64,000 bases of DNA, taken from NCBI GenBank assembly GCA_026874595.1, contig CM049315.1:33868164-33932163 (forward strand). The letters are read 5' to 3'. Shown here one piece after another: positions 13,311 through 47,955 of this stretch (position 1 is the stretch's first letter; each line of letters begins with the position of its first letter). The translations under genes and the position numbers were made by a program. Origin of the DNA: Sipunculus nudus (taxonomy: Eukaryota > Annelida > Sipuncula > Golfingiida > Sipunculidae). Below the pieces are notes generated by a model. That model was not told the DNA's origin. It saw nothing but the letters and a program-made list of their open reading frames with translations, and made no database searches.

Positions 13311-16300
13311 GCCACAATTTTGCAGCAATTGCTTTTAAACTTACACAAATGGTAGACAAGGAAAAGTCCTGGAGGCCTATTGTTTTTGGGCAATATAGGT
13401 CAAAGGTCAAGGTCAAGTCATCAAAAGTTCCTAAAGTGCTCTTTTCTTCATATCTCCATTACTATTTGTCATAGCCACTCCAAACATGGCTCATTTTAAT
13501 CGGCATTCCAAGGCCTTTCTTCTGATATATATGTTGCTGAAATCTGCTGTTTCTATGGTTACTCATTTTTGGGGAAAACTCATGATTTTCGAAAATAAAA
13601 GGCCTAATTTTTCTAACTTTGTCATTTTTAAAGCTAAAGAGTTCTAGTTTTTTGCATCAGACAGTACTAAATAAGCTTTTTATCATACAAGTGAAAGTCT
13701 CGTAAAATCTCGCACCATTTCTCGTCAAACAAGAATTTTCGAGATTTCATTAAATATGGCTTACAGGTCGCATTTTTTAAATTATGACTTTGAAAATGAC
13801 ATATTTTGTGTTATTTAGAAATATCTCGAAACCAATTTTTCATTTTTTGGAAATAGCCACCAGGGGGCGTGGTACATGAAACACTGTAACATATCATTTT
13901 TCTGCAATATCTCAAAAAATATTAAACGTGACACCATTTTATTTTGTCGTATCTGAAACTAGGAACATTGGCTTATCCCTTCGCACATGTAGCTTTGTGC
14001 TGCCGTTACCATGGCTACCGAATTTTGGGGTAAAACTTGACAATCTGAAAATGCGGACTTTCCAGCTTCTATCTCTGTTGATATTTGCGATAGAAAGGTC
14101 TGTTTTTTGGCGTTAGACAGCATCCCTCTAGTTCTAAGCCATTCAATCGCAAGTCTCGTCATATCTCGCACCGTTTCTCGTGAAACGAGAACACGTGACC
14201 ATTCAAAGAAATGCCTATAATTCTGTCATTTTTTACGCTTCAGACACATGGTTTGCAGCGCTGCATAACGGCTGACACTCGCAGTCACATTCAGGGGTTA
14301 CATTGTTAGTCTCGTCAAATCTCGCGCCGTTTTCCGCCAAACCACGAAGACACGTGCCGTCGCCGCAAGTGGCGGCAGGGTCCTTACGGTGGGCGGCCGG
14401 CGTGTGCAGCGGTCCGTGACGGCCTCTCCGGGCCCCATCTGTTATCGTACATGTTGGAGGCACAGTCACAACTTTATTGCTTGCCGGAAATCTTCGATTT
14501 CTGCAAGCAGGTTGGTCAGTCGCGGATGTCTGTTTGTCTGTTTGTTGCTTGCCGGAAATCTTCGATTTCGGCAAGTTGGTTGGTCAGTCGCGTATGTCTG
14601 TCTGTCTGTTTGTTTATTTGTTTGTTTGTGGACTCTCTACAGGCCACAATTTTACAGGAATTGCTTTCAAACTCACAAAACTTGTCAATAATCAAAAATC
14701 AAGGAAGCCTATTGTTTTTGGGCAATATAGGTCAAAGGTCAAGGTCAAGGTCATCAAAAGTATACAAAATGGTTTTTTCTTCATATCTTTGTCACCATTA
14801 AAGGTATCTGCCTCAACTGTAGCTCATTTTAAACGTCATTTCAAGGCCTTTCTTCTGGTGTGTAGCTGCCTTAAATTTGCCGTAACCATGGTTACGAAAT
14901 TTTGGAAAAAAGTCATGATATTAAAAATTCTGGGGTCTTATTTTTCTAACCTTGTCATTTTTAAAGCTAGAGAGGTCTAGTTTTTTGCATCAGGTAGCAT
15001 TCAACTAGTACTGCAAGGTTTCTTTAGAAGTCTCGCGATATCTCGTATAATATCTCGTCAAACGAGGTATTTCGAGATTTCAGTAGTCTTGCCCTGGAGG
15101 CCACAGTTTTGCTGGAATCTTTTTGAAACTGACATATCGTAAGTTCTACACTATTATCTCGAAATTGTTTTTCCATTTTCTGAATGCGGCCGCTAGGGTG
15201 CGCTGTATGTAAACCTCCCCAACATACCATGTTTTGGCCATATCTCCAAAATTGTAAGCCTCAATTACAAAACTCTAGCTTATTTTCTTCCTCTGGGTTT
15301 TTCCAGAAACCTGGTGTATTCATTTTGTCTCAATCTTGAGTCACTTTGTCTGTGTGTCCGTCTGTTTCTCAGTTGTCCTCAAATCCGCTTGCTTGCCGGT
15401 TCTTGCGTCTCACATATGGCATTCTACAGGCCACAATTTTGAAAGAATCCTTTTAAAACTATTACATCTTATGTCTTACACTAATATCTCGAAACAGATT
15501 TTTCATTTTCCAGAATTGGCCGCTAGGGGGCGGTGCACTCAAACTTGCACAACATATCATTTTTTGGCCATATCTCCAAAACTATAAACCTCATTTACAT
15601 AAACTATAGCTTATTTTCTTCCTCTGGGTCTTTCCAAAATTCTGGTGTACTCATTTGGTCTCAATCTTGAGTCACTTTGTCTGTGTGTCCGTCTGTTTCT
15701 CAGTTGTCCTCAAATACGCATGCTTGCTGGTTCTTTCGTCTCACATATAGCATTCTACAGGCAAGTTTTAATGGAATCCTTTTGAAACTAGTACATCTTA
15801 TGTCTTACTCTAATATCTCACAATATATTTTTCATTTTTCGGATATGGCCACTAGGGAGCGCTGCACCTGAACTTCATTAACATATAATTTTCAGGCCAT
15901 ACCTCCAAAACAATTAACCTCAATTACAGAAACTATAGCTTATTTTCTTCCTCCGAGTCTTTGACATAACCTAATTAAGTCATCTGGTCTCAGTCTAGTA
16001 TCACTTTGTCAGTATGTCTGTCCGTTTGTCAGTTGTACTCATATTAACCTGCATGCTTGATTTTACGTGTCCCATATAGCATTCTACAGACAATGGTTTT
16101 GCAGGAATCCTTTTAAAACTGGTACAGCTGATGCCATACACTAATATCTTGAAAGTTATTTTCATTTTCGGGATATGGGTGCTAGGGGGCGCTACACTCG
16201 AGCTTCCACGACATATCATATTTTTCCCATATCTCAAAAAATGTAAACCTCAGTTACAGAAAATTTAGCTTATTTTCTTCCTCCGAATCTTTTTCATAAT

Positions 16301-17960
16301 CTGGTTACATCATCTGGCCTCAATCTTGTGTCATTTTGTCAGTATGTCTGTCTGTTTGTCAGCTGTACTCAAATCGTCTGCCTGCTGGTTTTTACGTGTC
16401 ACATGTAGCATTGTACAGACCAGAGTTTTGCAGGAATCCTTTTAAAACTGGTACAGCTGATGTCATACACTAATTTCTCGAAAGTGGTTTTTCATTTTCG
16501 GGATATGGTTGCTAGGGGGCGCTCCACTCGAACCTCCACGACATATCACTTTTTTGCTATATCTAAAAAATGTTAACCTCAATTACAAAAAATATAATTT
16601 TCTTCCTCTGAGTCTTCTCCATATAGCTTACCTGAGTAATTCAACTGGTCTCAATCTCGTCACTGGTCCTCAATTTTGCCTGCTTGCTGGTTCTTGGGTC
16701 TTACAATCAGCATTCTTAGGGCCAAAGTTTTGCAGGAATCCAGAATTAACTGGTACATCTTATGTTTTATACTAATACCTCGAAAGGGATTTTTCATTTT
16801 TTTTTTAAAATAGCCGCTAGGGGGCGCTGACCTTGAAACAATCCAAATATTATATTTGGGCCATATCTCCAAATCTATAAACCTTGTGTACATACGCTAT
16901 AGGCCACTTTGTTCCTTTTTACGTTCTTTGGCAGCTTATCTAGTCATTTTTTCTCTCAAATGTTTCACTCTGTCAGTGTGTCTATCAGTTGTTCCTATTT
17001 TCACAAACTACGGCTTATTTATTTCTCTTTATTTTCTCAATGACCTGATCTAGTCATCTGGTCTCCACTTTGTGTCATCTTGGCAGTATGCCTGTCTGTT
17101 TGTCAGTTATACTCAATTTCATCTTATTGCCTTTTTTTGCGTCTTACATATGACATCCTACAGGCCATAGTTTTGAAGGAATCAATTTTTAACTTACACA
17201 TATCATATAATGGGACGAAGCTGGGAGGCTGTATGGGTATGTTTTAAATAGGTCAAAGATCAGGATAAAAGTCAACACAAGACTTCATAATCTTATTTTC
17301 CTCATAACTTTGTCAATATTGGTCTTATCTTCACAAACTATGGCCCATTTTATTCTCATTTCCGGAAATTCAGTCACGCTGCTGTTGTAATGGTTGCATA
17401 GCTTTTGGTCAAAAAAAAGGTCAAAGTAGATATTCGAGGTGCCTGTAAACTTTCAAAATTTTATTTTCCTGATGACGTCGGTATAAATTTGTTTATTCCA
17501 TAAAAAACGTTAGCTCATCTTCCGTCCATATTCCATCATATGGTCTACTGACCAATCTCTAAAGTTGTCTTAATCTGTCAGTATATCCGTCCGAATATCT
17601 TGTCGTCTATTTTGGGTATTTTGTGTTTTTTCGTATGACATTCACTCTATTACAGACCGCAGAAATTCATTTGAAACATTAACTTTGTTACCTTATTTCT
17701 CTATATTGTTTTCTTTTATATCAAAAGTGATCAAATCAAAGTTCAAGGTCATCGAAAAGGTTATAAATTTTTTTTTGACACCTTTGTCACAATCAATCGT
17801 ATTAACACAAGCTTCAGTTTACCTAAATCCTTTCTGCATTCCCATCATATTTAGGAGTAAGATAGGGCACTAAGTCCTGACCTTGTTATTTCTGCTCGTC
17901 TGTCTGTATTCGATTTCATTTGTGTATACCGCTTAAAATTAAGAAGGCATATCTTCCAGA
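13007..17960 (+). repeat. Complex repeat family, block 1
   Basis: This block holds hairpin minisatellites (13007-13252, about 60-bp unit, four copies; 14474-14600, two copies), (TCTG)n tracts and AGGTCA-type arrays (13397-13420, 14729-14753). A run of 330-bp monomers follows, whose CTCF-like cores lie at about 15187, 15517, 15847, 16177, 16507 and 16812; a related core is at 13856-13872. A GC-rich piece at about 14290-14460 matches 40690-40867 of block 2. After about 16900 the copies decay. Short reading frames are inconsistent from copy to copy and I see no protein. Confidence 0.85.
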
Positions 17961-19637: not shown

Positions 19638-21345
19638 TCATTTGTTCTTGAAGCTACAAAATGTCATGTCATGATCAGAGAAGTAGGCGTCATGAACTTC
19701 TGAAGTAACTGCCAGTGTACCAACGTTGTTGTGGTATATATGGTCTATCAGCGTCCCTCTATCAGTTGTAGGCGTTCTTACAAATTGTTCAAACCCGAAT
19801 TGCTTCATTAATACAAATAATTTGGTATCTTGTTTCTCATTCAAGTCATCATTAAAGTCTCCCAATACAAACACTGGCAAATCCAACGGCAAAGAGGAGA
19901 TAACAGAACGAAATCTTTGGCAGAAGTCTTTAAGAGGGTATGACGGTTTTCTGTATGCAACGACCACAATCAGTTTTGACTCCTTAACTTTGACCTGTAC
20001 AATTTTACATTCCAGTGGCTCACACTTGGCAGTAAACTCCTCTGAATGCAAGTGCTGCTTAACACATACCATAATACCGTGCAATCCACTGTGGTTCTGT
20101 TGAGATGGTACATTGGACCTAAATATGCGATACTGGTACTTTTCAGAAAAAATATCCAGGTTGTGCTGATCTGTCAGATATGTTTCGGTGAAACACATCA
20201 CATCTGTGCGATTGAAAATGCAAGCTTGTCTATTAGTTAAAAGGTCTGGAATTTTTGGGAGGAAATAACATATATTCAAATGACCAATTATTGTCCACTC
20301 AGGGTTTTGTTCGACCAGATTGAGTTCCTCAATTGGTATCGTATTTTGCCGCATTTCTTCCATTTCATCTTCGATTTTCTTATTAGCCTTAATTCCAGCC
20401 ACATCAAAGTCTACGATGTATAAACCCTCTAATGTCTTCACACGACTAAAAGCAACATAAGCTTGTCCTTTCCCAAAACGCTTGGCCTTTTTCATGTTGA
20501 CAACAATTTTGTCTACGGTTAGACCCTGGCACTTGTGGATAGTAACTGCCCATGCTAATGTTAATGGAAATTGTCTTCTTGCAATCTGAGCTCCCTTTCT
20601 GTTTCCTTTTTCGTATCTTGCTTCGTGTCTCTTGATAGGCACTGCATAGGGGAATTCCTGTTTCCACTGACTAGAAGATAATGCACTCTTTCCAACAGAC
20701 TGATTGTCAAACTTCACCAAAATCACTTGTACCGTTCCACTGGGATTCTGTATAATCTTTTGCACTGTTCCTATGACACCATTCACAAGACCATCAGCTG
20801 TATCAATGTTGTATGTAAGCATGACTCTGGCACCATCTGTCAACGCAAGAATCGTGTGTAAACCTGCCGTTTCAGATCGTTTCTGTGAAATTTTCATCTT
20901 CTGTAAATTGACCTGCCCAGTGCTGTCAGTCTTATCATCTGATGCATGTATGTATATCATGTTGTCTTCATTTGGCTCCAACTCTTTCAATTTATACAAA
21001 TTCCTTTCATCAACATCACAATTGTATGCAAAAACGTGCAAAGCGTCATGTGGATAATTTGGATCATCTTCCGAAGTCTGTCGTGATTCTAATAATAAAA
21101 TATCCGCATCAGTATGGTTTCCAGTTCTAATGCGACAAAGCATTTGAGCAAAGGCACAGTCGTCTTTTTGACGCATCACCTCATCCAATTCATGTAGATG
21201 GAAGTTCTCTTTCCAAAGGTTACCTTGTAATCTTTCGACAGGATCTTTCACTGGCTGATAGATCTGCGACTGTAAAACTGGCGGGAGTTGATACATATCT
21301 CCACCTGCCAAGATTGAAACGTTTCCAAAAAAAAACGGATTCATC
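19638..21345 (-). pseudogene. Helentron, Pif1-like helicase C-half fused to apurinic-type endonuclease
   Basis: The frame joins after the homopolymer with SILAGGDMYQLPPV (motif III region). It holds ARVMLTYNIDTADGLVNG, LAWAVTIHKCQGLTVDKIVV and YVAFSRVKTLEGLYI, completing the helicase. About 220 residues then form an exonuclease-endonuclease-phosphatase domain: WTIIGHLNI, DVMCFTETYL (catalytic Glu), FVLGDFNDDL, GTLIDHIYHN and YFSDHDMTFCSF (catalytic Asp-His). All key residues are present and the domain ends at the stop codon, as in Helentrons. It resembles LINE endonucleases, from which it is thought to derive. Its role in transposition is not established. Confidence 0.93.
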
Positions 21346-22161
21346 TGAGAGACCTTTGATTTTCTGCAGACGTTTGTGAATGTCAAGCAACATATCAGAC
21401 CCAACCATAGATATCTCATCAATGATTAACAACTGCAGATTTTCTAGTTTTGACCTTAGTGTGTTCAGTTTCTCAAAAGAAATATGATTACCACCATATT
21501 TTCTAGTCTGCAGCGATAAAGCTGAATGTATTGTCATACCACCTATATTGAAAGCAGCGACTCCGGTTGGCGCAGTTAGAAGGACGGTAATATCTGAAAT
21601 ACTTATTGAGTTTGACATGCGGAACAGTTTTCTTACATCAGAGTGTACAAGTTTGATGACATGTGATTTTCTAACACCACCTGGTCCACTCATGAACACA
21701 TGATAAGGTTTCAGAACTTTCCTTTGTTTCAAAGCTAAAACAGCTTCCTTGCACCATTTCCTGTTGAATAATACGATCTGTGTTTGTTTCTCATTTGAAG
21801 TGCGTACCATCTTTCGGTATTCATCATCCGGTAAAATTTGTCTTTCAGCCTCTGCCTCATAGCGCGCAATAATTTCTGAATCGTGATCGGGCCTTGGATT
21901 CTCGATAAATTCTGCATTCGCGTCAAGATCTTCCTGCTCAATCACTCTTTCTATATCGATACCTTCACCTTCGTCTTGCAAATTATTATGTTCAGCACCA
22001 GGTGCAATGTTTGCCCATGCATGTTCGGGCGGTCCAAACTGTGCATTGTTTTGGATTGCTTGTTCCACGAGTTCTAGGTTTTCTGTGTACTTCGCTTCAT
22101 TTTCAGCTATCAAGTCCTGTACATGAAAGTAATGCGACGCAAAATCAGGAAAACCACCCAA
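21330..22161 (-). pseudogene. Helentron, Pif1-like helicase N-half
   Basis: This continues the Rep frame after the TGA. It contains VFMSGPGGVRKSHVIK, a Walker A loop with Arg replacing the usual second Gly before Lys-Ser, then LLTAPTGVAAFNIGG (motif Ia) and LLIIDEISMVG (Walker B, motif II). These are typical of Pif1/RecD-like SF1 helicases fused to Helitron Rep. The protein leaves this frame at an A9 run on the plus strand (about 21322-21330), and the unrelated tail that would follow in this frame to 21220 is not real coding sequence. A homopolymer at the break means a sequencing error is possible, but the Arg substitution argues for true decay. Confidence 0.9.
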
Positions 22162-22182
22162 CAGGTCAACATCTTCGTTACG

Positions 22183-24465
22183 TCATGGTAGATATAGCAT
22201 CAGCTTTGCCCGATAGAAGTCACTTGGTTCTTTTTCAATACTAAACTTGTGAAATCTTATTACAGCTGGACGTCTACGTTTGTACATTATACCACCATTG
22301 TTAATTAGTTTGATCTCTTTTGGGAGTTCTGCTGGAACATCTTCTTGTACATTATTTATATCTAAGACAACTGGTACAGAGTCATTTTCCTCTTCATTCA
22401 AGTTTCCACGTCTTACCTTATAGATAGATGCAAAGTCTGCTAGACACAGATTTGTGATGCAGTTAGGTCTCAAAGAGTATCGTTCAATCACATTGCTCTG
22501 GAAAATGTTTTCCTCTTGATCTCCTAAATCGTCCAGTTCTTTCTGTGGTTTAAGAACAGCTGCTCGCACATCTTTGGCATCTGTATTAACAAATAACACT
22601 TCTCTGCTAAACTGTTTCATGGGCATGGACAATATTCGGTAAACAGCTTCTTGAGCACCGACTTCACGATGATTAAGGAAAACTGAGCCTACACGTCGAA
22701 GCATGGACTTGATCTCTTTGTCTTTGTACTCTTTACATACTTGTTTTAGCAGTTCCCCAATGCCTTTCTCATTTTTGGTCATATAGGCAGCAATGTACAT
22801 AACACATGCGTAGGCATCTATGATGTACTGTATATCAATGTTTGCTTGCCAGGCTTTCAGAATGACTGGGTTGTATGGATTGATAAGCCTTTCTGTTGGT
22901 GACCTCTTTAATACTATTGTTTTGCCTCTTTGTGAAACAAATAACTGTTGAATGTATTCTTCCAGCGAAACACAGGCTTTGTCAAGAATTTGTTCCAGGG
23001 TGGCGTCTTTTGTCATATCCTCATCAGACATTATACCTTTCACTCTTTCGAGTACACGCGATGCACATTGTTTCTTCGGTTTTGCCATTTCATCATCTGG
23101 TTCTTTTGCAATGAGTGTTACAGGGCTAGGTGGTCTAGGAAAGCTGAATCTACACGGACCTTTTTTCCTACAATAACTTGAGTGAGTGTGAGTTTGCAAT
23201 TCCTTGACCAGTTTTTGCAGAGTTCCGTCTTCATTACCAGGTAGTGCACATGTAATATATTTGTCAATAAATGATACAACTGTTTCATCTGCATCAGAGT
23301 CAATTTTCGGTGCATCCTTCACCCATAAGAGTGTATGTGCATGAGGAGAACCTCGAGCCTGAAATTCTATTCGGATAACATAGTCCACTAATTCCCCTAA
23401 AGGTTGAGCTTTGGATTTCAGAACATCCCTGAACAGCAGTTCTAATCTGTACTGGAACTGGCGTGCAGCAGTAACTGGGTTCCTTCTCAGCCATTGTGAT
23501 CTCTCAGCAAAAGATAATTGTTTCACATCATCATCACTCAATATTGTCCCATACTGTCTCGCTATTGTTTGAATTACGTCAGGCCATTGCATGTCAGCAG
23601 CAGAAACTGTGAAAAACCACGTTGGTATTCCCAGCTGTCGAACCATGCCTAAAACATCATAAAATACAGTTTGGAAATAGGCAGGAGTTCCCCTGACGTT
23701 TCTCAGCATTCTGTAGGCTTGATCGCATTTTACAAATTTTTTCATCTGATCTACATTCTTGACCATGCCTGCAGTGAGCCGTTTTCCCTGAAAGTGTCTT
23801 CCGCGAGCCCGTCTGAAAATGTAATGATTAATGTCACCTGTAACCTGCTGACATTCCGTTGCATATTGTGCACTGAATATGTAGTCTATAGATCTTGAAA
23901 ACCTGCCATCAACATCAAGCAGTCTTTGGTTGAAATATTTTCGGGGATTCAAGTGCACAGGTCGCTCAGCTGTCAGGGCATTTGTTCCAACAGGATACTT
24001 GTCAGGATTTGATAATTCTTCAAAGTTAGGATCACTCAGAAGTGGCATTGGTTTTGCTCCTTCAGCTGTTGCAACACTGATTATTTTGTTGAGCAATTCA
24101 GGATCTTCATTCATCATACTTGTTTCATATGGCAGCCCTCGCACTCTAGATGCCTCTTCAAATGCATATTCATCCTGTTCTCTTAGGTCTTCGTCGTCTT
24201 CAGAACATGACCTGTTTCCGTCAACTTTGCCATAGGCAGTTTGTATGCTCTGTTCATTCATTCCTACAGTAGTTTCGGTGTATGGCTCAAATATAACATA
24301 ATGCAACTGCCCAAGAAGTCCGAGATCAATTTCCTGTTCTTCATTACTTGCAGCCCTTGGATGTATTGTGTGAACCATAAGAGCACTTGTCGAGTGAACA
24401 TTCACTTTCACGGAATACATATCAGCTAAAGCCTGGAGTACCAGATGATCTCCCCAACTTTGCAT
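22183..24465 (-). pseudogene. Helentron, OTU C-half and HUH Rep endonuclease
   Basis: The frame opens with WGDHLVLQALADMY and LHYVIFEPY, the second half of the OTU fold. It then runs through the Helitron Rep domain (DYIFSAQYATE near the start, WPDVIQTI in the middle). The metal-binding HUH motif is RGSPHAHTLLW (codons near 23334-23345), and the two-tyrosine active site is in MYIAAYMTK (codons near 22781-22800), with Tyr residues four apart as in Helitrons. Rep nicks and joins single-stranded DNA during rolling-circle transposition. Catalytic residues look intact. The frame ends at a TGA (22183-22185) that stands where a Trp is usual in this family, and the same frame continues directly into the helicase segment. 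Confidence 0.93.
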
Positions 24466-24472
24466 CCTTAGA

Positions 24473-25846
24473 TCATCTATGTATCTTATCCATTGTATTT
24501 CTCTTTGTATCTGTTAGCTGATTTACGAATAAATTTTCAGCAGTGGGCTGTTCTGTGTCAGCATTTACAAGGTTCTCGCTTTCAAATCTTGTTGCAACAA
24601 AATCGATGTAATGTTCCTTATTTTCATTCATATAGTCAGCGACCTGTTTACGTAACAGAGCGACGTTCGTATCGGTTATACCCAACCTCTCAAGATGATA
24701 CCAAAATGCATAAAACATACAATTTCCATCTCCTGGAACATCAACTACATGCATTCTACTCTGACTTGCCATGGTGATCAATCTTCCATAGTCATTTTGA
24801 CAATCATTTACATCAGAATCAACTTCAGTACGGTGTTGTTTTTTCTCAATTCCTTTTCTACTCTTTGTTTTCTCTTCAGTTTCATCCTGATTTCCATTCG
24901 AGCAGTCATTTTGGTCTGTCGGAGAAACAGCCTCCCAAAGCTTAGAATCATCATTTGTCGAATCTTCCAGCCAATTTTCATTAATTTCAATAGTAGCATA
25001 ATGTGGGTTTTCTTTCTTCAGCCATTTGAGTGCATTTATCACCACATCAGGTCTAACAGACTCATACATATAATGAGAAGAGTGTTTCAAACTTCGCTTC
25101 AATTTCATCCCAACAACTTGCGACTCTGAAGGTAGTCTTGGAAGTACCTCACATACCGCATCAAGTTTAGCTGGAACATTAACCGCTGGTCCATGAATTC
25201 CATGTTGTTTCCCTCTTGGTAAGCCTACCATTTTCATGAAAGCGATTCTTTGGCAAATGAGTCTCAGTTCAAGGGCGTTTAGATCTGCAAGTTCTTTTGG
25301 TGGATCTACTAAAGACAGATTATTTGCTTTTGACTGAGCGGGCAATTTTCCTCTTTTTAATGTCAAGTGGCATGTTCTGCATATCCATTCTTCATTATTG
25401 TGAGAAGTTTGACGAAATGCATGTATATTCTGCAAAAGAGACTGTGAAACTTTGTTATACTTCTCCTCTTTTAGATGCACGACTGACGTCCTAAACATCA
25501 AGCGGTGACAACTACAGCACACGTAATTTGCAGAATCACGTACTTTATCTAAGAATTCGGAAACAACAGTTTCATTTTTAGGAACAATGTTACGGCATTC
25601 GTGTCGGTGCATTCTGGTATAACATGCTGCTTTGCTCAATCTCTGTTCAGTTTCTTGTTCAGTTTCTTTCTCCCTTAATTCGTTTTTACGTCTCGAGTCT
25701 AAATAAAGTCTTTCTCTTTTTTTCCCAGGAGTTTCAAGTTTACGCCCCATTATATGTCTTTCCTGATCTTTAAACAGTCTCTCTTGCCTTAGCTCAGCGC
25801 TTTCAAGTTCACGTTGCAAAATGTGCCTTTGCTGATCTTCGGACAA
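24473..25846 (-). pseudogene. Helentron, STPR tail, Cys-rich/DUF6570-like region and OTU protease N-half
   Basis: The 457-codon frame begins in STPR-like repeats. It has Cys pairs (CCSCH and WICRTCH, about residues 120-165), consistent with a zinc-binding unit, followed by a DUF6570-like stretch (LNALELRLICQRIAF, then GIHGPAVNVP). The OTU protease starts near residue 365 with VVDVPGDGNCMFYAF, the Asp and catalytic Cys (about residue 376) of the OTU family of cysteine proteases. The matching His is in the next segment (LHYVIFEP), so the triad is complete once the frameshift near 24485 is taken into account. OTU domains cleave ubiquitin-type linkages; in Helentrons the role is unknown. Confidence 0.88.
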
Positions 25847-25849
25847 TCT

Positions 25850-26294: not shown

Positions 26295-26450
26295 TATTTT
26301 AAATCAGATTTAAATCGGATGCAAAGTAACAAAAATTACGCAAATATATATTACCTTTATACGCCGATTTTATATCGTTACAATCGTTCCTTACAATTTA
26401 CTAATACTATATTTATTCAACTAATGTATATAATTTGTCCCTAGACAAGG
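26294..26450. other. Region upstream of the Helentron coding path
   Basis: This short AT-rich stretch lies between the predicted start and the minisatellite. It would hold the Helentron promoter and leader if transcription starts here. No TATA box stands out among many AT runs. Confidence 0.4.
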
Positions 26451-27090
26451 AAACCAAGCACAGATTCGGCAACTAGTCCCAGATTGGGAAACTATTGCAT
26501 AGATTTGGCAACTAGACCCAGCTCGGGCAACTCGGCACAGATTCGGCAACTAGACCCAGTTCGGGCAACTCGGCACAGATTCGGCAACTAGACCCAGTTC
26601 GGGCAACTCAGCACAGATTCGGCAACTAGACCCAGCTCGGGCAACTTAGCACAGATTCGGCAACTAGTCCCAGATTGGGAAACTATTGCTTAGATTTGGC
26701 AACTAGACCCAGCTCGGGCAACTCGGCACAGATTCGGCAACTAGACCCAGTTCGGGCAACTCGGCACAGATTCGGCAACTAGACCCAGCTCGGGCAACTT
26801 AGCACAGATTCGGCAACTAGACCCAGCTCGGGCAACTCGGCACAGATTCGGCAACTAGACCCAGTTCGGGCAAACTAACACCCAGATTCGGGCAAACTCA
26901 CACCCAGCTCGGGCAAACTCACACCCAGATTCGGGCAAACTCACACCCAGATTCGGGCAAACTGACCCAGATTCGGGCAAACTCACACCCAGATTCGGGC
27001 AAACTCACACCCGAATCTGTGACCCAGATTCGGGCAAACTCAAACCCAGATTCGAGCAAACTGACCCAGATTCGGGCAAACTAGTCTTTC
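26450..27090. repeat. 38-bp minisatellite changing to a 22-bp minisatellite
   Basis: From 26450 to about 26870 the unit is 38 bp, CAGATTCGGCAACTAGACCC then AGCTCGGGCAACTCGGCA. From about 26870 the array becomes a shorter 22-bp unit of the type CAGATTCGGGCAAACTCACACC to 27085. Both share GATTCGG(G)CAA, so the second array probably grew from half of the first unit. It lies directly 5' of the Helentron coding path. Subterminal minisatellites occur in Helitron-like elements, so this may belong to the transposon. Confidence 0.88.
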
Positions 27091-32055: not shown

Positions 32056-32058
32056 TCA

Positions 32059-32400
32059 TTGCTTACCGGAAATCTTCGATTTCGGCAAGTTGGTTGGTCA
32101 GTCTGTCTGTCTGTTTGTTGCTTGCCGGAAATCTTCGATTTCGGCAAGTTGGTTGGTCAGTCGCGTATGTCTGTTTGTTTGTGTGTTTATTGCTTGCCGG
32201 AAATCTTCGATTTCGGCAAGTTGGTTGGTCAGTTGCGTATGTCTGTTTGTTTGTTGCTTGCCGGAAATCTTCGATTTCGGCAAGTTGGTTGGTCAGTCGC
32301 GTATGTCTGTCTGTCTGTTTGTTGCTTGCCGGAAATCTTCGATTTCGGCAAGTTGGTTGGTCAGTTGCGTATGTCTGTTTGTTTGTTTGTTTGTTTGTCT
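32059..32400 (+). repeat. Hairpin minisatellite, five copies, with TCTG/TTTG tracts
   Basis: Each unit has CTTGCCGGAAATC, TTC, then GATTTCGGCAAG, which can pair over 12 base pairs with one bulged G. In block 1 the same position uses GCTTGC...GCAAGC instead, so the stem is kept although the sequence changed. Units are separated by TCTG/TTTG tracts of varying length. Confidence 0.88.
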
Positions 32401-33362: not shown

Positions 33363-34131
33363 CCTCATTAACCTAAACTATAGCTTCTTTTCTTCCTCTG
33401 GTTCTTTCCAAAAACCTAGTGTATTCATTTGGTCTCAATCTTGAGTCACTTTGTCTGTGTGTCCGTCTGTTTCTCAGTTGTCCTCAAATCCGCTTGCTTG
33501 CCGAATCTTGCGTCTCACATATAGCATTCTACAGGCCACAGTTTTGAAAGAATCCTTTTAAAACTATTACATCTTATGTCTTACACTAATATCTCGAAAC
33601 GGATTTTTCATTTTCCAGAATTGGCCGCTAGGGGGCGGTGCACTCAAACTTGCACAACATATCATTTTTTGGCCATATCTCCAAAACTAATAACCTCATT
33701 TACATAAACTATAGCTTATTATCTTCCTCCGAGGTTTCTTCATAACATGATTAAGTCATCTGTTCTCAATCTTGGGTCAGTTTGTCAGTATGTTTGTCTG
33801 TTTGTCAGTTGTCCTCAATTTCGCCTGCTTCCTGGTTCTTGCGTCTCACATGTAGCATTCTACTGGCCACAGTTTTGCAGGAATCGTTTTGTAAATTACA
33901 CTTGTCATATATCGTGATGACATCTGGAAGTCCTATGTTTATTATTCAAATAAGTCAAAGGTCAAGGTCAAGGTGATCAAAATATATCAAAATCTTATTT
34001 TCTTTAGAACTGTGTTAATATTGGTTCTTTCTTCACAAACTATGGATTATTTTCTTTCACTTTGACACTGCTCGTTCATCTGACTACTTTACATCATTTC
34101 CGGCAAGCGCGTGACCTCAGGTCATCTAGTT

Positions 34132-34162
<31 letters not shown>

Positions 34163-36221
34163 GTACTCTCTACAGGCCACAATTTTAAGGCAATTGTCTT
34201 TAAACTTATACAGCTGGTAGACAAACAAAAGTCCTGGAGGCCTATTGTTTTTTGGGCGATATAGGTCAAAGGTCAAGGTCAAGGTCATCAAAACTTCTCA
34301 AAACGGTTTTTTCTTCATATCTTTGTCACTAATAGTCGTATCTTCTTCAAACATAGCTCATTTTAAACGTCATTCCAAGGCCAGTCATCTGGTGTGTAGC
34401 TGACTCAAATTTGCCGTTACCATGGTTACGAATTTTTGGGAAAAAGTCATGATATTTGAAAATAAGGGGCCTTATTTTTCTAACTTTGGCAGTTTTACAG
34501 CTAGAGAGGTCTAGTTTTTTGCATCAGGTAGCATTAAACAAGTACTGCAGGCTTGTTTTATAAGTCTCGCGATATCTCGTATAATATCTCGTCAAACGAG
34601 ATATTTCGAGATTTCAGTAGTCTTGCCCTGGAGGCCACAGTTTTGCTGGAATCTTTTTGAAATTGACATATCATAAGTCCTACACTATTATCTCGAAATA
34701 GTTTTTCCATTTTCTGAATGCGGCCGCTAGGGGGCGCTGTATGCAAACCTCCCAAACATACAATGTTATGGCCATATCTCCAAAACTGTAAACCTCATTT
34801 ACATAAACTATAGCTTATTTTCTTCCTCTGGGTCTTTCCAAAAACCTGGTGTATTCATTTGGTCTCACTCTTGAGTCAATTTGTCTGTGTGTCCGTCTGT
34901 TTCTCAGTTTTCATCAAATTCGCCTGCTTACCGGTTCTGGCGTCTCACATATAGCATTCTACAGGTCACAGTTTTGAAAGAATCCTTTTAAAACTATTAC
35001 ATCTTTTGTTTTACACTAATATCTCGAAACAGAATTTTCATTTTCCAGAATTGGCCGCTAGGGGGCGGTGCACTCAAACTTGCATAATATATCATTTTTT
35101 GCCCATATCTCCAAAACTATAAACATCATTTACATAAACTATAGCTTATTTTCTTCCTCTGGGTCTTTCCAAAAACCTGGTGTATTCATTTGGTCTCAAT
35201 CTTGAGTCACTTTGTCTGTGTGTCCGTCTGTTTCTCAGTTGTCCTCAAATTCGCTTGCTTGCCGATTCTTGCGTCTCACATATAGCATTCTACAGGCCAC
35301 AGTTTTGATAGAATCCTTTTAAAACTATTACATCTTATGTCTTTCACTAATATCTCGAAACCGATTTTTCATTTTCCAGAATTGGCCGCCAGGGGGCGGT
35401 GCACTCAAACTTGCACAACATATCATTTTTTGGCCATATCTCCAAAACTATAAACTTCATTAACCTAAACTATAGCTTCTTTTCTTCCTCTGGTTCTTTC
35501 CAAAAACCTAGTGTATTCATTTGGTCTCAATCTTGAGTCACTTTGTCTGTGTGTCCGTCTGTTTCTCAGTTGTCCTCAAATTCGCTTGCTTGCCGAATCT
35601 TGCGTCTCACATATAGCATTCTACAGGCCACAGTTTTGAAAGAATCCTTTTAAAACTATTACATCTTATGTCTTACACTAATATCTCGAAACGGATTTTT
35701 TAATTTTCCAGAATTGGCCGCTAGGGGGCGGTGCACTCAAACTTGCACAACATATCATTTTTTGGCCATATCTCCAAAATTAATAACCTCATTTACATAA
35801 ACTATAGCTTATTATCTTCCTCCGAGGTTTCAGCATAACATGATTAAGTCATCTGTTCTCAATCTTGGGTCAGTTTGTCAGTATGTTTGTCTGTTTGTCA
35901 GTTGTCCTCAATTTCGCCTGCTTCCTGGTTCTTGCGTCTCACATGTAGCATTCTACTGGCCACAGTTTTGCAGGAATCGTTTTGTAAATTACACTTGTCA
36001 TATATCGTGATGACATCTGGAAGTCCTATGTTTATTATTCAAATAAGTCAAAGGTCAAGGTCAAGGTGATCAAAATATATCAAAATCTTATTTTCTTTAG
36101 AACTGTGTTAATATTGGTTCTTTCTTCACAAACTATGGATTATTTTCTTTCACTTTGACACTGCTCGTTCATCTGACTACTTTACATCATTTCCGGCAAG
36201 CGCGTGACCTCAGGTCATCTA

Positions 36222-36255
<34 letters not shown>

Positions 36256-37546
36256 GTACTCTCTACAGGCCACAATTTTAAGGCAATTGTCTTTAAACTT
36301 ATACAGCTGGTAGACAAGCAAAAGTCCTGGAGGCCTATTGTTTTTGGGCGATATAGGTCAAAGGTCAAGGTCAAGGTCATCAAAACTTCTCAAAACGGTT
36401 TTTTCTTCATATCTTTGTCACTAATAGTCGTATCTTCTTCAAACATAGCTCATTTTAAACGTCATTCCAAGGCCAGTCATCTGGTGTGTAGCTGACTCAA
36501 ATTTGCCGTTACCATGGTTACGAATTTTAGGGAAAAAGTCATGATATTTGAAAATAAGGGGCCTTATTTTTCTAACTTTGGCAGTTTTACAGCTAGAGAG
36601 GTCTAGTTTTTTGCATCAGGTAGCATTAAACAAGTACTGCAGGCTTGTTTTATAAGTCTCGCGATATCTCGTATAATATCTCGTCAAACGAGATATTTCG
36701 AGATTTCAGTAGTCTTGCCCTGGAGGCCACAGTTTTGCTGGAATCTTTTTGAAATTGACATATCATAAGTCCTACACTATTATCTCGAAATAGTTTTTCC
36801 ATTTTCTGAATGCGGCCGCTAGGGGGCGCTGTATGCAAACCTCCCAAACATACAATGTTATGGCCATATCTCCAAAACTGTAAACCTCATTTACATAAAC
36901 TATAGCTTATTTTCTTCCTCTGGGTCTTTCCAAAAACCTGGTGTATTCATTTGGTCTCACTCTTGAGTCAATTTGTCTGTGTGTCCGTCTGTTTCTCAGT
37001 TTTCATCAAATTCGCCTGCTTACCGGTTCTGGCGTCTCACATATAGCATTCTACAGGTCACAGTTTTGAAAGAATCCTTTTAAAACTATTACATCTTTTG
37101 TTTTACACTAATATCTCGAAACAGAATTTTCATTTTCCAGAATTGGCCGCTAGGGGGCGGTGCACTCAAACTTGCATAATATATCATTTTTTGCCCATAT
37201 CTCCAAAACTATAAACATCATTTACATAAACTATAGCTTATTTTCTTCCTCTGGGTCTTTCCAAAAACCTGGTGTATTCATTTGGTCTCAATCTTGAGTC
37301 ACTTTGTCTGTGTGTCCGTCTGTTTCTCAGTTGTCCTCAAATTCGCTTGCTTGCCGATTCTTGCGTCTCACATATAGCATTCTACAGGCCACAGTTTTGA
37401 TAGAATCCTTTTAAAACTATTACATCTTATGTCTTTCACTAATATCTCGAAACCGATTTTTCATTTTCCAGAATTGGCCGCCAGGGGGCGGTGCACTCAA
37501 ACTTGCACAACATATCATTTTTTGGCCATATCTCCAAAACTATTAA
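33363..37546 (+). repeat. Near-identical 2.09-kb tandem duplication
   Basis: Copy A (about 33363-35454) and copy B (about 35455-37546) match almost base for base at an offset of 2,091-2,093. Short frames at 33782/35875 and 34558/36650 give identical translations. Differences are a few substitutions and microsatellite lengths. It spans one whole module (three monomers plus linker), so it is a recent unequal-exchange event or an assembly duplication. Confidence 0.92.
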
Positions 37547-37941
37547 CCTCATTTACATAAATTATAGCTTATTATCTTCCTCTTAGGTTTCTTTATAACA
37601 TGATTAAGGCATCTGTTCTCAATCTTGGGTCAGTATGTTTGTCTGTTTGTCAGTTGTCCTCAATTTCGCCTGCTTCCTGGTTCTTGCGTCTCACATGTAG
37701 CATTCTACTGGCCACAGTTTTGCAGGAATCGTTTTGAAATTACACTTGTCATATATCGTGATGATATCTGGAAGCCCTATGTTTATTATTCAAATAAGTT
37801 AAAGATCAAGGTCAAGGTGATCAAAATATATCAAAATCTTATTTTCTTTAGAACTTTGTTAATATTGCTTCTTTCTTCACAAACTATGGATTATTTTCTT
37901 TCACTTTGACACTGCTCGTTCATCTGACTAACTTTACATCA

Positions 37942-37992
37942 TTTCCGGCAAGCGCGTGACCTCAGGTCATCTAGTTTGTTGCTTGCCGGAAA
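37942..37992. repeat. Nested palindrome at a module junction
   Basis: TTTCCGGCAAGC (37942-37953) and its exact complement GCTTGCCGGAAA (37981-37992) flank a second perfect palindrome TGACCTCAGGTCA (37957-37969). The same arrangement recurs at 39574-39624. It marks the join between the end of one module and the start of the next. Confidence 0.88.
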
Positions 37993-40907
37993 TCTTCGAT
38001 TTCTGCAAGCAGGTTGGTCAGTCGCGGATGTCTGTTTGTCTGTTTGTTTGTTGCTTGCCGGAAATCTTCGATTATTGGTCGTATCTACTTCAACAGTAGC
38101 TCATTTTAATCGTCATTCCAAGGCCTGTCTTCTGGTGTGTAGCTGACTCAATTTGCGGTAACCATGGTAACGCATTTTTGGGGAAAAGTGCTATTTTTTC
38201 TAAATTTGTCAGTTTTAAAGATACTGAGGTCTTTTTTTTTTGCTTCAGGTAGCATTCACCTAGTACTACAAGATTCTATTATGGGGTCTTGCAATATCTC
38301 GTATAATATCTCGTCAAACGAGGTATTTCGAGATTTCAGTCATCTTGCCCTGGAGGCCACAGTTTTGCAGGAATCTTTTTGAAACTGACATATCTTAAGT
38401 CCTACACTATTATCTCAAAATTAATTTTTCATTTTTTTAATTCGGCCGCTAGGGGGCGCTGGGTGCAAACCTCTCCAACATATCATGTTTTGGCAATATC
38501 TCCAAAATTATAAGCCTCAATTACAAAAACTATAGTTTATTTTTTTCCTCTAAGTCTTCTTCATGAACTCGTTTAGTCATCTGGTCTCAATCTTGTGTCA
38601 CTTTGTCTGTGTGCCCGTCTGTTTCTCAGTTGTCCTCAAATCCGCTTGCTTGCCGGTTCTTGCGTCTCACATATATCATTCTACAGGCCACAGTTTTGAA
38701 AGAATCTTTTTAAAACTATTACATCTTATGTCTTACACTAATATCTCGAAACCGATTTTCTATTTTCTAGAATTGGCCGCTAGGGGGCGGTGCACTCTAA
38801 CTTGCACAACATATCATTTTTTGTCCATATCTCCAAAACTATAAACATCATTTACATAAACTATAGCTTATTTTCTTCCTCTAGGTCTTTCCAAAAACTT
38901 GGTGTTTTCATTTGGTCTCAATCTTGAGTCACTTTGTCTGTGTGTCCGTCTGTTTCTCAGTTGTACTCAAATTCGCTTGCTTGCCGGTTCTTCCGTCTCA
39001 CATATAGCATTCTACAGGCCACAGTTTTGAAAGAATCCTTTTAAAACTATTACATCTTATTTCTTACACTAGTATCTCGAAACCGATTTTTCATTTTCCA
39101 GAATTGGCCGCTAGGGGGCGGTGCACACAAACTTGCACAACATATCATTTTTCGGCCATATCTCCAAAACTATAAACATCATTTACATAAACTATAGCTT
39201 ATTATCTTCCTCTGAGGTTTCTTCATAACATGATTAAGTCATCTGTTCTCAATCTTGGGTCAGTATGTTTGTCTGTTTGTCAGTTGTCCTCAATTTAGCC
39301 TGCTTCCTGGTTCTTGCGTCTCACATGTAGCATTCTACTGGCCACAGTTTTGCAGGAATCGTTTTGTAAATTACACTTCTCATATATCGTGATGATATCT
39401 GGAGGTCCTATGTTTATTATTCAAATAAGTCAAAGGTCAAGGTCAAGGTGATCAAAATATTTCAAAATCTTATTTTCTTTAGAACTTTTTTTAATATTGG
39501 TTCTTCCTTCACAAATTATGGATTATTTTCTTTCACTTTGACACTGCTCGTTCATCTGATTGACTTTACATCATTTCCGGCAAGCGCGTGACCTCAGGTC
39601 ATCTAGTTTGTTGCTTGCCGGAAATCTTCGATTTTCGCAAGCATGTTGATCACCCGCGTATGTTTGTTTGTTTGTTTGTTTGTCTGTCTGTCTGTCTGTT
39701 TGTCTGTATGTACACGCGCTACAGGCCACAGTTTTTAAGCAATCGCTCTGAAACTTATCCATAAACTGTAAGATCTGTTCTCCTCGGAGCCTATTGTTTT
39801 TGGTCATGATCGGTCAAAGGTCAAGGTCAGGGTCACCAAAAAACCTTAAATCTTTATTTTCTTCATATCTTCGTCAATAATAATCGTAGCCGCATAATCT
39901 GTAGCTCATTTTATTCCTCACTATGTTAGCTTTCCAAGTGCTGGCAAATTTTTCCGGTCAATTGTTACCATGGTAACGTATTTTGGGGGGAAAATAAGAA
40001 AATTCGAAAATTTCCCTCCAAATTTCTCATTTTTTGAGTTAGAGAGGCCTAGTTTTTTGCAGTGCGTAGCATTTAATATGCTCTATGCGAAATTAATGTG
40101 AGTCTCGCAAAATCTCGTGCCATTTGTCGTCAAATGAGACTTTCCGAGATTTCATTAAATATGATTTACAGGTGGCAGTTTTACAGCTAAGGTTCTGAAA
40201 GTGACATATTTTCTGTTGTTCTGTATTATCTCAAACTTGTTTTTTCATTTTTCGGAAATAGCCACCAGGGGGCGTGGTACTGGAAACACTGTAACATATC
40301 ATTTTTCCGCAATATCTAAAAAAATATTAAGCATATAACAACTTTTTTTGTCGCATCTAAAACTAGGATCATTGCCTTATTCCTTCGTACATTTAGCCTT
40401 GTGCTGCCGTTACCATGGTGACCAAATTTTGGGGTAAAACTTGACAATCTGAAATACGGAGTGTTCCTGCTTCTGTCTCTGTCAATATTTGCGATAGAAC
40501 GCTCTGGTTTTTGGCGTTAGATAGCATTAGTTTACTTCTTAGTCATTCAATAGAAAGGCTCGTCATATCTCGCACCGTTTCTCGTGAAACGAGAACACGA
40601 GACCATTCAAAGAAATGCCTATAATGCTGTCATTTTTTACGCTACAGACACACGGTTTGCAGCGTTGGATAGCGGCTGACACTCGCAGTCACATTCAGGG
40701 GTCACATTGTTAGTCTCGTCAAATCTCGCGCCGTTTTTCGCCAAACCACGAAGACCCGTGCCATCGCCGCAAGTGCCGGCAGGGTCCTTATGGTGGGCGG
40801 CCGGCGTGTGCAGCGGTGCGTGTCGGCCTTTCCGGGCCCTGTCTATTATCCTACATGTTGGACAGTTATATCTCGAAACAGATTATTAGCGAATCTGTGA
40901 GCTTATG

Positions 40908-43620: not shown

Positions 43621-46600
43621 GTGTAGCCAATTGAAAACTATGATTTATTTTCTTCCTCTGAGTCTACTCGATAATCTGAGTAGGTCATCTGGTCTAATTC
43701 TTGTGTCATTTTTTGAGTATGTCTGTCTGTTTGTCAGTGATCCTAAATTTCGCCTGCTTTGCTGGACCTTGCTTCTTGCAGTTAGCAATTTTCAGGACAC
43801 AGTTTTGAGGGAATCCTTTTGGAACTGGAACAACATCTTATTTCTTACATTAAAGTCTCAAAAGAAATTTTTAATGTTTGGGATATGGCCGCTACCATAT
43901 ATTGGCCATACCTCCGACACTATAAACTCTACCTACTAAAACTATAGCTCATTTTGCTTCTATTTACGTTCCCAACTTTTTTTCTGGTAGTCTGTTATCT
44001 CAGATGTGTCAGTATATCTGTCTGTTTTGAGCCAAGTCTACTTTCATGATCCTTGTGTGATATATGTCATTCAACATGCAAAACTTTCCAGCAATCGCTC
44101 TGAAAGTCATTCAATTGATAGAAAAGCGACAGTTTGTCCTGCTTGTTTCTCTGTCTTATTTCCAGCCATTTCCGGCAAGCGCTCGACCTCTGGTCGTCTA
44201 GTTTGTTTGTCTGTCTGTCTGTGTACTCTCTACAGGCCACAATTTTTCAGCAATTGCTTTCAAACTTATACAGCTGGTAGACAAGCAAAAGTCCTGGAGG
44301 CCTATTGTTTTTGGGCATTATAGGTCAAATGTCAAGGTCGAGGTCATAAAAAATATACAAAACGGTTTTTCGGTTCATATCTGTGTTATTATTGGTCGTA
44401 TCTACTTCAACAGTAGCTCATTTTAATCGTCATTCCAAGGCCTGTTTTCTGGTGTGTAGCTGACTAAATTTGCGGTAACCATGGTTACGCATTTTTGGGG
44501 AAAAGTGCTGATATTTTTCTAAATTTGTCAGTTTTAAAGCTACAGAGGTCTAGTTTTTTGCTTCAGGTACCATTCATCTAGTACTACAAGATTCTATTAA
44601 GAGTCTCGCAATATCTCGTATAATATCTCGTCAAACGAGATATTTCGAGATTTCAGTAATCTTGCCCTGGAGGCCACAGTTTTGCAGGAATCTTTTTGAA
44701 ACTGGCATATCTTAAGTCCTACACTATTATCTCGAAATTAATTTTTCATTTTTTTAATTCGGCCGCTAGGGGGCGCTGGGTGCAAACCTCTCCAACATAT
44801 CATGTTTTGGCAATATCTCCAAAATTATAAGCCTCAATTACAAAAACTATAGTTTATTTTTTTTTCATCTAAGTCTTCTTCATGAACTCGTTTAGTCATC
44901 TGGTCTCAATCTTGTGTCACTTTGTCTGTGTGTCCGTCTGTTTCTTAGTTGTCCTCAAATCCGCTTGCTTGCCGGTTCTTGCGTCTAACATATAGCATTC
45001 TACAGGACACAGTTTTGAAAGAATCTTTTTAAAACTATTACATCTTATGTCTCACACTAATATCTCGAAACAGATTTTTCATTTTCCAGAATTGGCCGCT
45101 AGGGGGCGGTGCACTCAAACTTGCACAACATATCATTTTTTGGTTATATCTCCAAAACTATAAACATCATTTACATAAACTATAGCTTATTTTCTTCCTC
45201 TGGGTCTTTCCAAAAACCTGGTGTATTCATTTGATCTCAATCTTGAGTCACCTTGTCTGTGTGTCCGTCTGTTTCTCAGTTGTCCTCAAATTCGCTTGCT
45301 AACCGGTTCTTGCGTCTGACATATAGCAATCTACAGGCCACAGTTTTGAAAGAATCCTTATAAAACTATTACATCTTATGTCTTACACTAATATCTCGAA
45401 ACCGATTTTTCATTTTCCGGATATGGCCGCTAGGGGGCTGTGCACTCAAACTCCCACAACATATCATTTTTTGCCCATATCTCTAAAAGTATAAACCTCA
45501 TTTACATAAACTATAGCTTATTATCTTCCTTTGAGGTTTCTCCATCACCTGATCAAGTCAACTGGTCTGAATCTTGAGTCACTTTGTCTGTGTGTCCGTC
45601 TGTTTCTCAGTTGTCCTCAAATTCGCTTGCTTGCCGGTTCTTGCGTCTCACATATAACACTCTACAGGCCACAGTTTTGAAAGAATCCTTTTAAAACTTT
45701 TTCATCTTATGTCTTACACTAATATCTCGAAAGCGATTTTTCATTTTCCAGCATTGGCCGCTAGGGGGCGATGCACTCAAACTTGGACAACATATCATTT
45801 TTTGGCCATATCTTCAAAACTATAAACCTCATTTACATAAACTATAGCTTATTATCTTCCTCTGAGGTTTCTCCATAACATGATTTAGTCATTTGTTCTT
45901 AATCTTTAGTCAGTATGTTTGTCTGTTTTTCAGTTGCCCTTAATTTCGCCTGCTTTCTGGTTCTTGCGTCTCACATATGCCATTCTACTGGCCGCAGTTT
46001 TGTGGGAAACGCTTTGTAACTTACACTTGTCATAGTTCTTAGGACATCTGGAAGGCCTATGTTTATTATTCAAATAAGTCAAAGGTCAAGGTCACGCTGA
46101 TCAAAACATATCAACTTTTTTTTCTTCAGAATTTTGTTAATATTGATCCTATCTTTACAAACTAGGGATTATTTTCTTTCACTTTGACATTGCTCGTTCA
46201 TCTGACTAACTTTACGTCATTTCCGGCAAGCGCGTGACCTCAGGTCATCTAGTTTGTTTGTCTGTCTGTGTACTCTCTACAGGCCACAATTTTGCAGCAA
46301 TTGCTTTTAAACTTACACAGCTGATAGAAAAGCAAAAGTCCTCGAGGCCTATTGTTATTGGGCGACATAGGTCCAAGGTCAAGGTCAAGGTCATTAAAAC
46401 TTCTCAAAACGGTTTTTTCTTCATATCTTTGTAACTGTTAGTGGTATCTTCTTCAAACATAGCTCATTTTAAACGTCATTCCAAGGCCTTTCTTCTGGTG
46501 TGTAACTCTTTCAAATTTGCCGTAACCACGGTTACGCATTTTGGGGAAAAATTCATGATATTCTGAAATAAGGGGTCTTATTTTTCTAACTTTGTCCGTT

Positions 46601-47955
46601 TTAAAGCTAGAGAGGTCTAGTTTTTTGCATCAGGTAGCATTTAACAAGTACTGCAAGATTTTATTAAAAGTCTTGCGATATCTCGTACAATATCTCGTCA
46701 AACGAGATATTTCGAGATTTCAGTTATCTTGCCCTGGAGGTCACCGTTTTGCAGGAATCTTTTGGAAACTGACATATCGTAAGTCCTACACTATTATCTC
46801 GAAACAATTTTTCCATTTTTTGAATGCAGCCGCTAGGTGGCGCTGTATGCAAACCTCCCGAACATATCATGTTTTGGCCATATCTCCAAAACTGTGAGCC
46901 TCAATTACATAAACTATAGCTTATTTTCATCCTCTGAGTCTTTTCTGAATCCTGGTGTAGTCATTTCGACTCAATCTTGAGTCACTTTGTCAGTGTGTCC
47001 GTCTGTTTCTTAGTTTTCATCAAATTCGCCTGCTTATCGGTTCTGGTGTCTCACATATAGCATTCTACAGGTCACAGTTTTGAAAGAATCCTTTTAAAAC
47101 TATTACATCTTATGTCTTACACTAATATCTCGAAACGGATTTTTCATTTTCCAGAATTGGCCGCTAGGGGGCGGTGCACTCAAACTTGCAAAACATATCA
47201 TTTTTTGCCCATATCTCCTAAACTATAAACCTCATTTACAGAAACTATAGCTTATTTTCTTCCTCTGGGTCTTTAAAAAAACCTGGTGTATTCATTTGGT
47301 CTCAATCTTGAGTCATTTTGTCTGTGTGTCCGTCTGTTTCTCAGTTGTCCTTAAATCCGCTTGCTTGCCGGTTCTTGCGTCTCACATATAGCATTCTACA
47401 GGCCACAGTTTTGAAAGAATCCTTTTTAAACTATTACATATTATGTCTTACACTAATATCTCGAAACGGATTTTTCATTTTCCAGAATTGGCCGCTAGAG
47501 GGCGGTGCACTCAAACTTGCACAACATATCATTTTTTGGCCATATCTCCAAAACTATAAACCTCATTTACATTTCCTCTGAGGTTTCTTCATATTATGAT
47601 TATGTCATCTGTTCACAATCTTGGGTCAGTTTGTCAGTATGTTGTCTGTTTGTCAGTTGTCCTCAATTTCGCCTGCTTCCTGGTTCTTGCGTCTCACATG
47701 TAGCATTCTACTGGCCACAGTTTTGCAGGAATCGTTTTGTAAATTACACTTGTCATATATCGTGATGATATCTGGAAGTCCTATGTTTATTATTCAAATA
47801 AGTCAAAGGTCAAGGTCAAGGTGATCAAAATATATCAAAATCTTATTTTCTTTAGAACTTTATTAATATTGGTTCTTTCTTCACAAACTATGGATTATTT
47901 TCTTTCACTTTACATCATTTCCGGCAAGCGCGTGACCTCAGGTCATCTAGTTTAT
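43621..47955 (+). repeat. Complex repeat family, block 3
   Basis: It has the same organisation as block 2. A decayed monomer (43640-43990) has lost its CTCF-like core (GGCCGCTACCATATATTGG). Termini with TTTCCGGCAAGC lie at 44169, 46220 and 47918, and CTCF-like cores near 44761, 45103, 45424, 45765, 46827, 47159 and 47489. AGGTCA arrays lie near 44322, 46077, 46369 and 47801. The block ends cleanly with TGACCTCAGGTCA at 47933-47945 followed by unrelated sequence. Confidence 0.87.

Follow-up and report, generated by a model that had tools for sequence, protein, structure and literature searches.

CTCF-type motifs in the satellite-like core of a putative Helentron-associated element of Sipunculus nudus

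We analysed a 64,000-nucleotide stretch of the Sipunculus nudus genome (assembly GCA_026874595.1, contig CM049315.1, positions 33,868,164 to 33,932,163 of the forward strand; henceforth the window), in which arrays of a roughly 330-bp tandem repeat carry motifs resembling the binding site of CTCF, a protein that shapes the folding of animal genomes. The layout of the carrier fits that of a Helentron-associated non-autonomous element (HINE), and from the pattern of substitutions across its monomers we conclude that CTCF-type sites have been preserved along the lineage of this rolling-circle transposon. The CTCF-type identity of the motifs is supported by their similarity to the CTCF matrix, by the presence of a CTCF orthologue, by the enrichment of such motifs elsewhere in the genome and by the direction of change at the constrained positions, which is one that CTCF would tolerate. 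Binding of CTCF at the monomers is likely, and we hypothesise that the arrays may act as loop anchors or insulators.

CTCF-type motifs in the monomers

The first-pass annotation of this DNA had described 28 motifs close to the CTCF core, carried by the repeat and all on one strand. Allowing at most one mismatch, CTAGGGGGCG matched the window 28 times, always on the forward strand (18 exact matches and 10 with one mismatch), against a mean of 0.41 and a maximum of 2 in 100 shuffles. A scan with a human CTCF matrix of the MA0139.1 type (maximum score 31.2 bits) recovered all 28 sites at 12.0–27.3 bits, of which 25 scored at least 19.4 bits and the other three 12.0, 12.4 and 14.4 bits. The rest of the window held five matches of at least 11 bits (11.8–14.4), which is about the level of the reversed window (4 matches) and of ten mononucleotide shuffles (1–5). 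As for the start positions given earlier, 26 of the 28 lay within 0–2 bases of the matrix start and two were 10 bases off (45103, corrected to 45093, and 45765, corrected to 45755). The sites had also been called very close to the core CCASYAGRKGGCRS: none of them matches it exactly, but 22 of 28 do so with one mismatch, and in 19 of these 22 the difference is CCG for CCA. The form GCCACCAGGGGGCGTGG is present, but at two sites only (matrix starts 13854 and 40259), both in monomers of an older class. Altogether the window contains 29 motif-class monomers, one of which (43783–44027) is without most of the core. In the older class, 12 of 14 monomers carry GCCACCAGGGGGCGTG, with the consensus CCA.

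The single orientation holds for all 28 motifs of the window but not for the genome. Across 1.43 Gb, CTAGGGGGCGCTG occurred 3467 times on the forward and 3138 times on the reverse strand (reversed control 2 + 2), and CCRCYAGGGGGCGSTG 3637 and 2875 times (control 0 + 0). The two controls underestimate chance somewhat, because reversal gives strings with additional or unavoidable CpGs. For CCRCYAGGGGGCGSTG, within the first 100 places listed on contig C1, 69 of 70 neighbours less than 10 kb apart shared a strand, and the 30 clusters formed by those places comprised 12 on the plus and 18 on the minus strand. With strand agreement local and cluster strands mixed, orientation therefore follows from the element: it is uniform in the window because the arrays run head-to-tail in elements of one orientation. 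Of 188 type-A monomers sampled outside the window (contig C1 regions picked by a non-core 15-mer), 58 held CTAGGGGGCGCTG exactly and 12 were exact matches to CCASYAGRKGGCRS; extrapolation gives a rough genome total of about 21,000 monomers.

Constraint on the core

Substitutions were compared in an alignment drawn from 41 sources (the window and loci L013–L052; 324 kb), to which a core-masked profile gave 370 matches. We used 280 of these (217 of type A and 63 of type B) and dropped the 90 that did not span the region. Monomer classes were obtained by clustering on non-core columns and the tree was built without the core, while the 63 type-B rows were left out of the core counts because that class is defined outside the core. 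This re-alignment replaced a first core-masked genome alignment in which columns were misplaced and module types mixed. Identity within the window was also set aside as a test, as the core was tied with the blocks CCATATCTCCAAAA (0.954) and CTAATATCTCGAAA (0.946) and the comparison was not decisive.

The proposal that the core evolves more slowly than its flanks found mixed support in raw rates and was clearly borne out only after matching for base and CpG class. Specifically, raw changes per site amounted to 7.5 for CTAGGGGGCGCTGC (rank 15 of 314) and 10.4 for CCGCTAGGGGGCGC (rank 127 of 314), compared with 11.2 over all sites; by site class, the repeat had 14.2 changes at G/C, 26.2 at CpG and 8.6 at A/T positions. 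Once matched for base and CpG class, CTAGGGGGCGCTGC had a ratio of 0.55 across the 217 type-A monomers, the slowest of 314 alignment windows, and the 19-bp site showed 193 changes where 312 were expected, a count that none of 3000 swaps reached. Matrix scores averaged 22.2, compared with 10.7 in the column-swap null (0/3000), and 205 of the 217 type-A copies scored at least 12 bits. Without CpG positions the 19-bp site had a ratio of 0.64, and its positions 7–19 one of 0.49 (0/5000). The result was repeatable: the 13-mer ranked first in both locus halves and 1–4 in 12 locus subsamples, its ranks being 1, 7 and 5 in three draws of one monomer per locus and 5 in the window alone.

When changes were divided by branch, CTAGGGGGCGSTG had a ratio of 0.29 on internal branches as against 0.60 on terminal ones; for the 19-bp site the values were 0.44 and 0.80, the latter with P 0.037. 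That the constraint is stronger on internal branches points primarily to the source lineages and less to individual insertions. Moreover, the bases that did arise in the core were those tolerated by CTCF, beyond what the flank spectrum predicts (P 0.0004; internal branches 0/5000, terminal 0.019; P 0.001 in a repeat run). This bias persisted without CpG positions (P 0.016; 0.026 for core positions 4–17) and was non-significant at positions 1–3 and 18–19 alone (P 0.19).

A candidate reader and competing explanations

The genome encodes a cognate protein: a CTCF orthologue (L009) lies at C11:67037824, and its zinc-finger region aligns with human CTCF (PDB 7w1m_H) at 3e-111 and 57% identity. In our reading of this alignment, with the usual finger numbering, fingers 3–5 have the human residues at the base-reading helix positions -1, 3 and 6; finger 6 keeps Q with T>S and M>A, and finger 7 has V>I but retains R and D. 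Among the matches listed for the CTCF query, many C2H2 zinc-finger matches fell on contig C16.

CTCF-type motifs are also enriched apart from the repeat. CCASYAGRKGGCRS was found 5308 times genome-wide, compared with 76 in the reversed control (somewhat too low, because the reversed string always holds a CpG), and many of the 100 listed places on contig C1 belong to other subtypes and are isolated by their coordinates. CCNSYAGRTGGCAG, a form unlike that of the repeat, was found 2513 times (control 64). At its variable base, the 100 listed places had A in 54, G in 24, T in 18 and C in 4 cases, and four of the listed T sites fall within about 1.2 kb. Since G is well represented at this 'A' position, the CCG of the repeat appears acceptable.

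We consider it reasonably probable that the central array of the HINE, with one CTCF-type site per monomer, has been kept in the source lineage because CTCF binding helps the element. The repeat would then be the central tandem array of a non-autonomous Helentron, a rolling-circle transposon, in which each internal monomer of about 330 bp supplies one site, so that the array forms a head-to-tail run of like-oriented sites. CTCF binding would aid the element and the site would be retained in the lineage that yields new copies, the benefit most probably being chromatin kept open or insulated in the germ line during copying. Inserted copies would decay more freely afterwards, and any use by the host as a loop anchor would be a by-product at some loci. 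Both CTCF itself as the binder and the reason for its benefit to the element are what we infer.

Several observations weigh against this reading. Bases beyond the core are also well conserved by identity within the window; the slow stretch reaches into GCTGC, past the core and in a weak part of the CTCF matrix; and constraint is weak at CCG, whose CpG is unprotected and mutates roughly as fast as CpGs in general (C>T 17 times, G>A 17 times). The matrix used for scoring is that of human CTCF. The information content of matrix positions did not correlate significantly with their constraint (rho -0.24, P 0.33), and the expectations for CpG classes rest on 4–6 columns per class only. An AGGTCA array in the first module of the element is equally constrained, at 0.49 of the matched rate (0/2000), which means that motif constraint is not special to CTCF. 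Finally, 439 matches to the CTCF query represent C2H2 zinc-finger genes, many of the listed ones concentrated on few contigs, and another finger protein could therefore be the reader. The conserved string might thus be recognised by a C2H2 silencer aimed at the repeat, or by a factor that serves the element's replication, in which case its likeness to a CTCF site would be superficial. We regard this as unlikely, given that matrix scores reach 27.3 of 31.2 bits, that derived bases follow the CTCF matrix and that the older class mostly carries GCCACCAGGGGGCGTG with its consensus CCA.

It is quite improbable that the motif has no function and that its apparent conservation comes from young, homogenised arrays or from a mutational cold spot. 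Raw conservation is indeed unremarkable (by identity, and with type B included, GCCGCTAGGGGGCG ranks 108 of 313), and the constraint on the 19-bp site is modest on terminal branches. However, homogenisation acts on whole monomers and gives no reason to single out 14 bp, a cold spot would leave the choice of derived bases unbiased, and the lowest matched ratio of all alignment windows proved repeatable. Very unlikely, lastly, is that the host has co-opted the arrays to serve as oriented insulators or loop anchors, with purifying selection on individual copies: like-oriented runs and the terminal-branch ratio of CTAGGGGGCGSTG would fit it, but orientation follows element structure, clusters occur on both strands and terminal branches show less constraint than internal ones.

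The AGGTCA arrays place the proposed CTCF-type sites in a wider context. The first and last modules of the element share ancestry with the main monomers, to which they align with scores of 38 and 45 (shuffle maxima 10 and 8), and GGTCAAAGGTCAAGGTCA or a near form sits in them at the place corresponding to the CTCF-like core. The older monomer class aligned weakly with the first module (10.5 vs 8) and scored below the shuffle maximum with the last (4.5 vs 8.5). AGGTCA at such spacing resembles, we presume, nuclear-receptor sites. Constraint on the array of the last module was non-significant (0.73, P 0.115). Genome-wide, the 18-mer GGTCAAAGGTCAAGGTCA occurred 25,621 times (control 0), and runs with a spacing of about 288 bp were common among 100 places listed; we infer that such arrays are HINEs.

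According to our own alignment, the CpGs of CCGCTAGGGGGCG would fall at core positions C2 (in CCG) and C12. In human CTCF sites, methylation at C2 and C12 alters binding, with C2 on the motif strand dominant (PMC10325916). It is conceivable, if doubtful, that the monomers of a HINE serve as exchangeable modules for DNA-binding proteins of the host, bearing either a CTCF site or an AGGTCA array, each maintained by selection for transposon propagation, and that the C2 and C12 CpGs would make some 20,000 CTCF-class sites methylation-switchable one-way barriers.

Carrier element and known systems

In the units that contain the arrays, a 5' subterminal inverted repeat (subTIR) with its complementary repeat is accompanied by a GTCY-type microsatellite; a first and a last module flank the array, and a 3' subTIR with the palindrome TGACCTCAGGTCA completes the set (Table 1). 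This layout fits that of HINEs, as described in PMC4067079 and, for the oyster Cg_HINE, in PMC7492417. Subterminal inverted repeats of 12–15 bp stand at both ends, with CTTGCCGGAAATC at the 5' ends and CTTGCCGGAAATG on the opposite strand at the 3' ends (21 matches, 1.06 expected). A short inverted repeat complementary to the 5' subTIR, GATTTC[GT]GCAAG, follows a TTC spacer in at least 12 copies; the fold of one such pair had a z of -1.91, and 8 of 200 shuffles folded equally well. The palindrome near the 3' end occurs at 6 sites, its folding energy showing no improvement over shuffles (z -0.77), and the tetranucleotide microsatellite and central tandem repeats are represented by TGTC runs and the arrays of about 330 bp. 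Classical Helitron ends (TC...CTRR), suggested by TCTCTACAGG and TCTAG, were considered and rejected, as the subTIRs, microsatellite and palindrome match a HINE better. Hairpin-like ATCTCGTCAAACGAGAT repeats, at 32825, 34586, 36678, 44625 and 46692, separate the first module from the type-A array. A search of the window against Rfam gave no match.

Table 1 Repeat monomers, element parts and Helentron-like genes in the window (positions counted from its first base)
Feature	Position	Strand	Remarks
Older-class monomer	13757–14076	+	CTCF-like site TAGCCACCAGGGGGCGTGG at 13854–13872; cluster 1 on non-core columns
Type-A array (~330 bp)	15088–17008	+	Sites 15187, 15517, 15846, 16176, 16506, 16811
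Type-A array	32858–33847	+	Sites 32960, 33291, 33622
Type-A array	34621–35940	+	Sites 34721, 35052, 35383, 35715
Type-A array	36713–37692	+	Sites 36813, 37144, 37475
Type-A array	38343–39322	+	Sites 38443, 38774, 39105
Older-class monomer	40161–40480	+	Site TAGCCACCAGGGGGCGTGG at 40259
Type-A array	44659–45972	+	Sites 44760, 45093, 45424, 45755
Type-A array	46725–47695	+	Sites 46827, 47158, 47489
Nuclear-receptor-like array GGTCAAAGGTCAAGGTCA	13398–13415	+	First-type (B5) module; copies 14730, 34264, 36356, 39812
GGTCAAGGTCAAGGTCA, one base shorter than GGTCAAAGGTCAAGGTCA	32510, 46377	+	First module
5' subTIR and complementary repeat	32061–32352	+	Five copies, GCTT[GA]CCGGAAATC-TTC-GATTTCGGCAAG
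Further copies of 5' subTIR/complementary repeat	13015–13231, 14479–14575, 37981–38009	+	
GTCT-type microsatellite	34129–34162	+	Between two HINE units; others 36225–36255, 13251–13297
HINE 3' end	47917–47950	+	subTIR ATTTCCGGCAAGC, palindrome TGACCTCAGGTCA, TCTAG
HINE 3' end copies	34096, 36189, 37941, 39573, 46219		subTIR without exact palindrome at 44168
Helentron-like gene set	19638–25846	-	Several frames: OTU/DUF6570, Helitron_like_N Rep, PIF1 helicase, C-terminal endonuclease

The Helentron-like gene set matched the domains Helitron_like_N (1.2e-32), PIF1, OTU and Exo_endo_phos. It was considered as the source of the HINEs and is given as context only, no subTIR copy having been found nearby. 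Helitron_like_N was matched at least 143 times in the genome when 150 of 195 candidates were scored, and seven of these matches lie in open frames longer than 2,000 aa. Just upstream of the first HINE, frames at 10113–12508 (forward strand) correspond to an element of non-LTR type with endonuclease and reverse transcriptase (RVT_1 6.4e-29; PF14529 below the cut-off). At 48511–51997 (forward strand), the first frame beginning about 560 bp past the last HINE, two frames match Gly_transf_sug, the second just under the cut-off; they are perhaps exons of a glycosyltransferase gene. The window further contains a 38-bp tandem repeat (AGCACAGATTCGGCAACTAG...) with 14 copies at 26457–27007 and a 68-bp tandem repeat with 11.5 copies and 95% matches at 60121–60900.

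Among known systems, Cg_HINE of Crassostrea gigas (PMC7492417) has the same 5' subTIR with complementary repeat, GTCY-type microsatellite, satellite-like array and 3' subTIR with palindrome; its monomers are predominantly 140–180 bp long, compared with about 330 bp here, and the word CTCF is absent from the main text of that paper. DINE-1 and other HINEs of Drosophila and mites likewise share the 12–15 bp subTIRs, the 3' stem-loop, microsatellites, central repeats and non-autonomous nature, according to PMC4067079, which does not mention CTCF. A search of titles and abstract openings found no paper on CTCF together with Helentrons, nor one on CTCF sites in rolling-circle transposons that have a satellite core.

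Tandem monomers of the macrosatellite DXZ4 are reported to bind CTCF in one orientation. DXZ4 is a single X-linked locus with monomers of about 3 kb, in contrast to the many dispersed, transposon-borne arrays of S. nudus. Mammalian CTCF sites derived from transposable elements usually come as one per insertion. Such transposon-borne sites, in B2 and MIR SINEs, MER20, L2 and LTRs, contribute to loop anchors and domain borders according to PMC9902604, the main text of which does not contain the word 'Helitron'. The CTCF sites of the H19 imprinting-control region have a CpG at core C2, like the CCG of CCGCTAGGGGGCG, and methylation of C2 on the motif strand inhibits binding (PMC10325916); those sites belong to an imprinting locus.

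If our reading is true, CTCF sites would be spread by a rolling-circle transposon whose core is a satellite, several per insertion and in one direction, and the element may have scattered many one-way CTCF docking sites across the genome. The many comparable copies would make it possible to test whether selection at the level of the transposon, rather than of the host, maintains the site of an architectural protein. As spiralians have pronounced gaps in 3D-genome data (PMC10658182), the repeat also offers a target for CTCF maps in this group. In mammals, CTCF sites carried by transposons and tandem arrays of such sites are both documented; the present case would unite the two in a single rolling-circle transposon.

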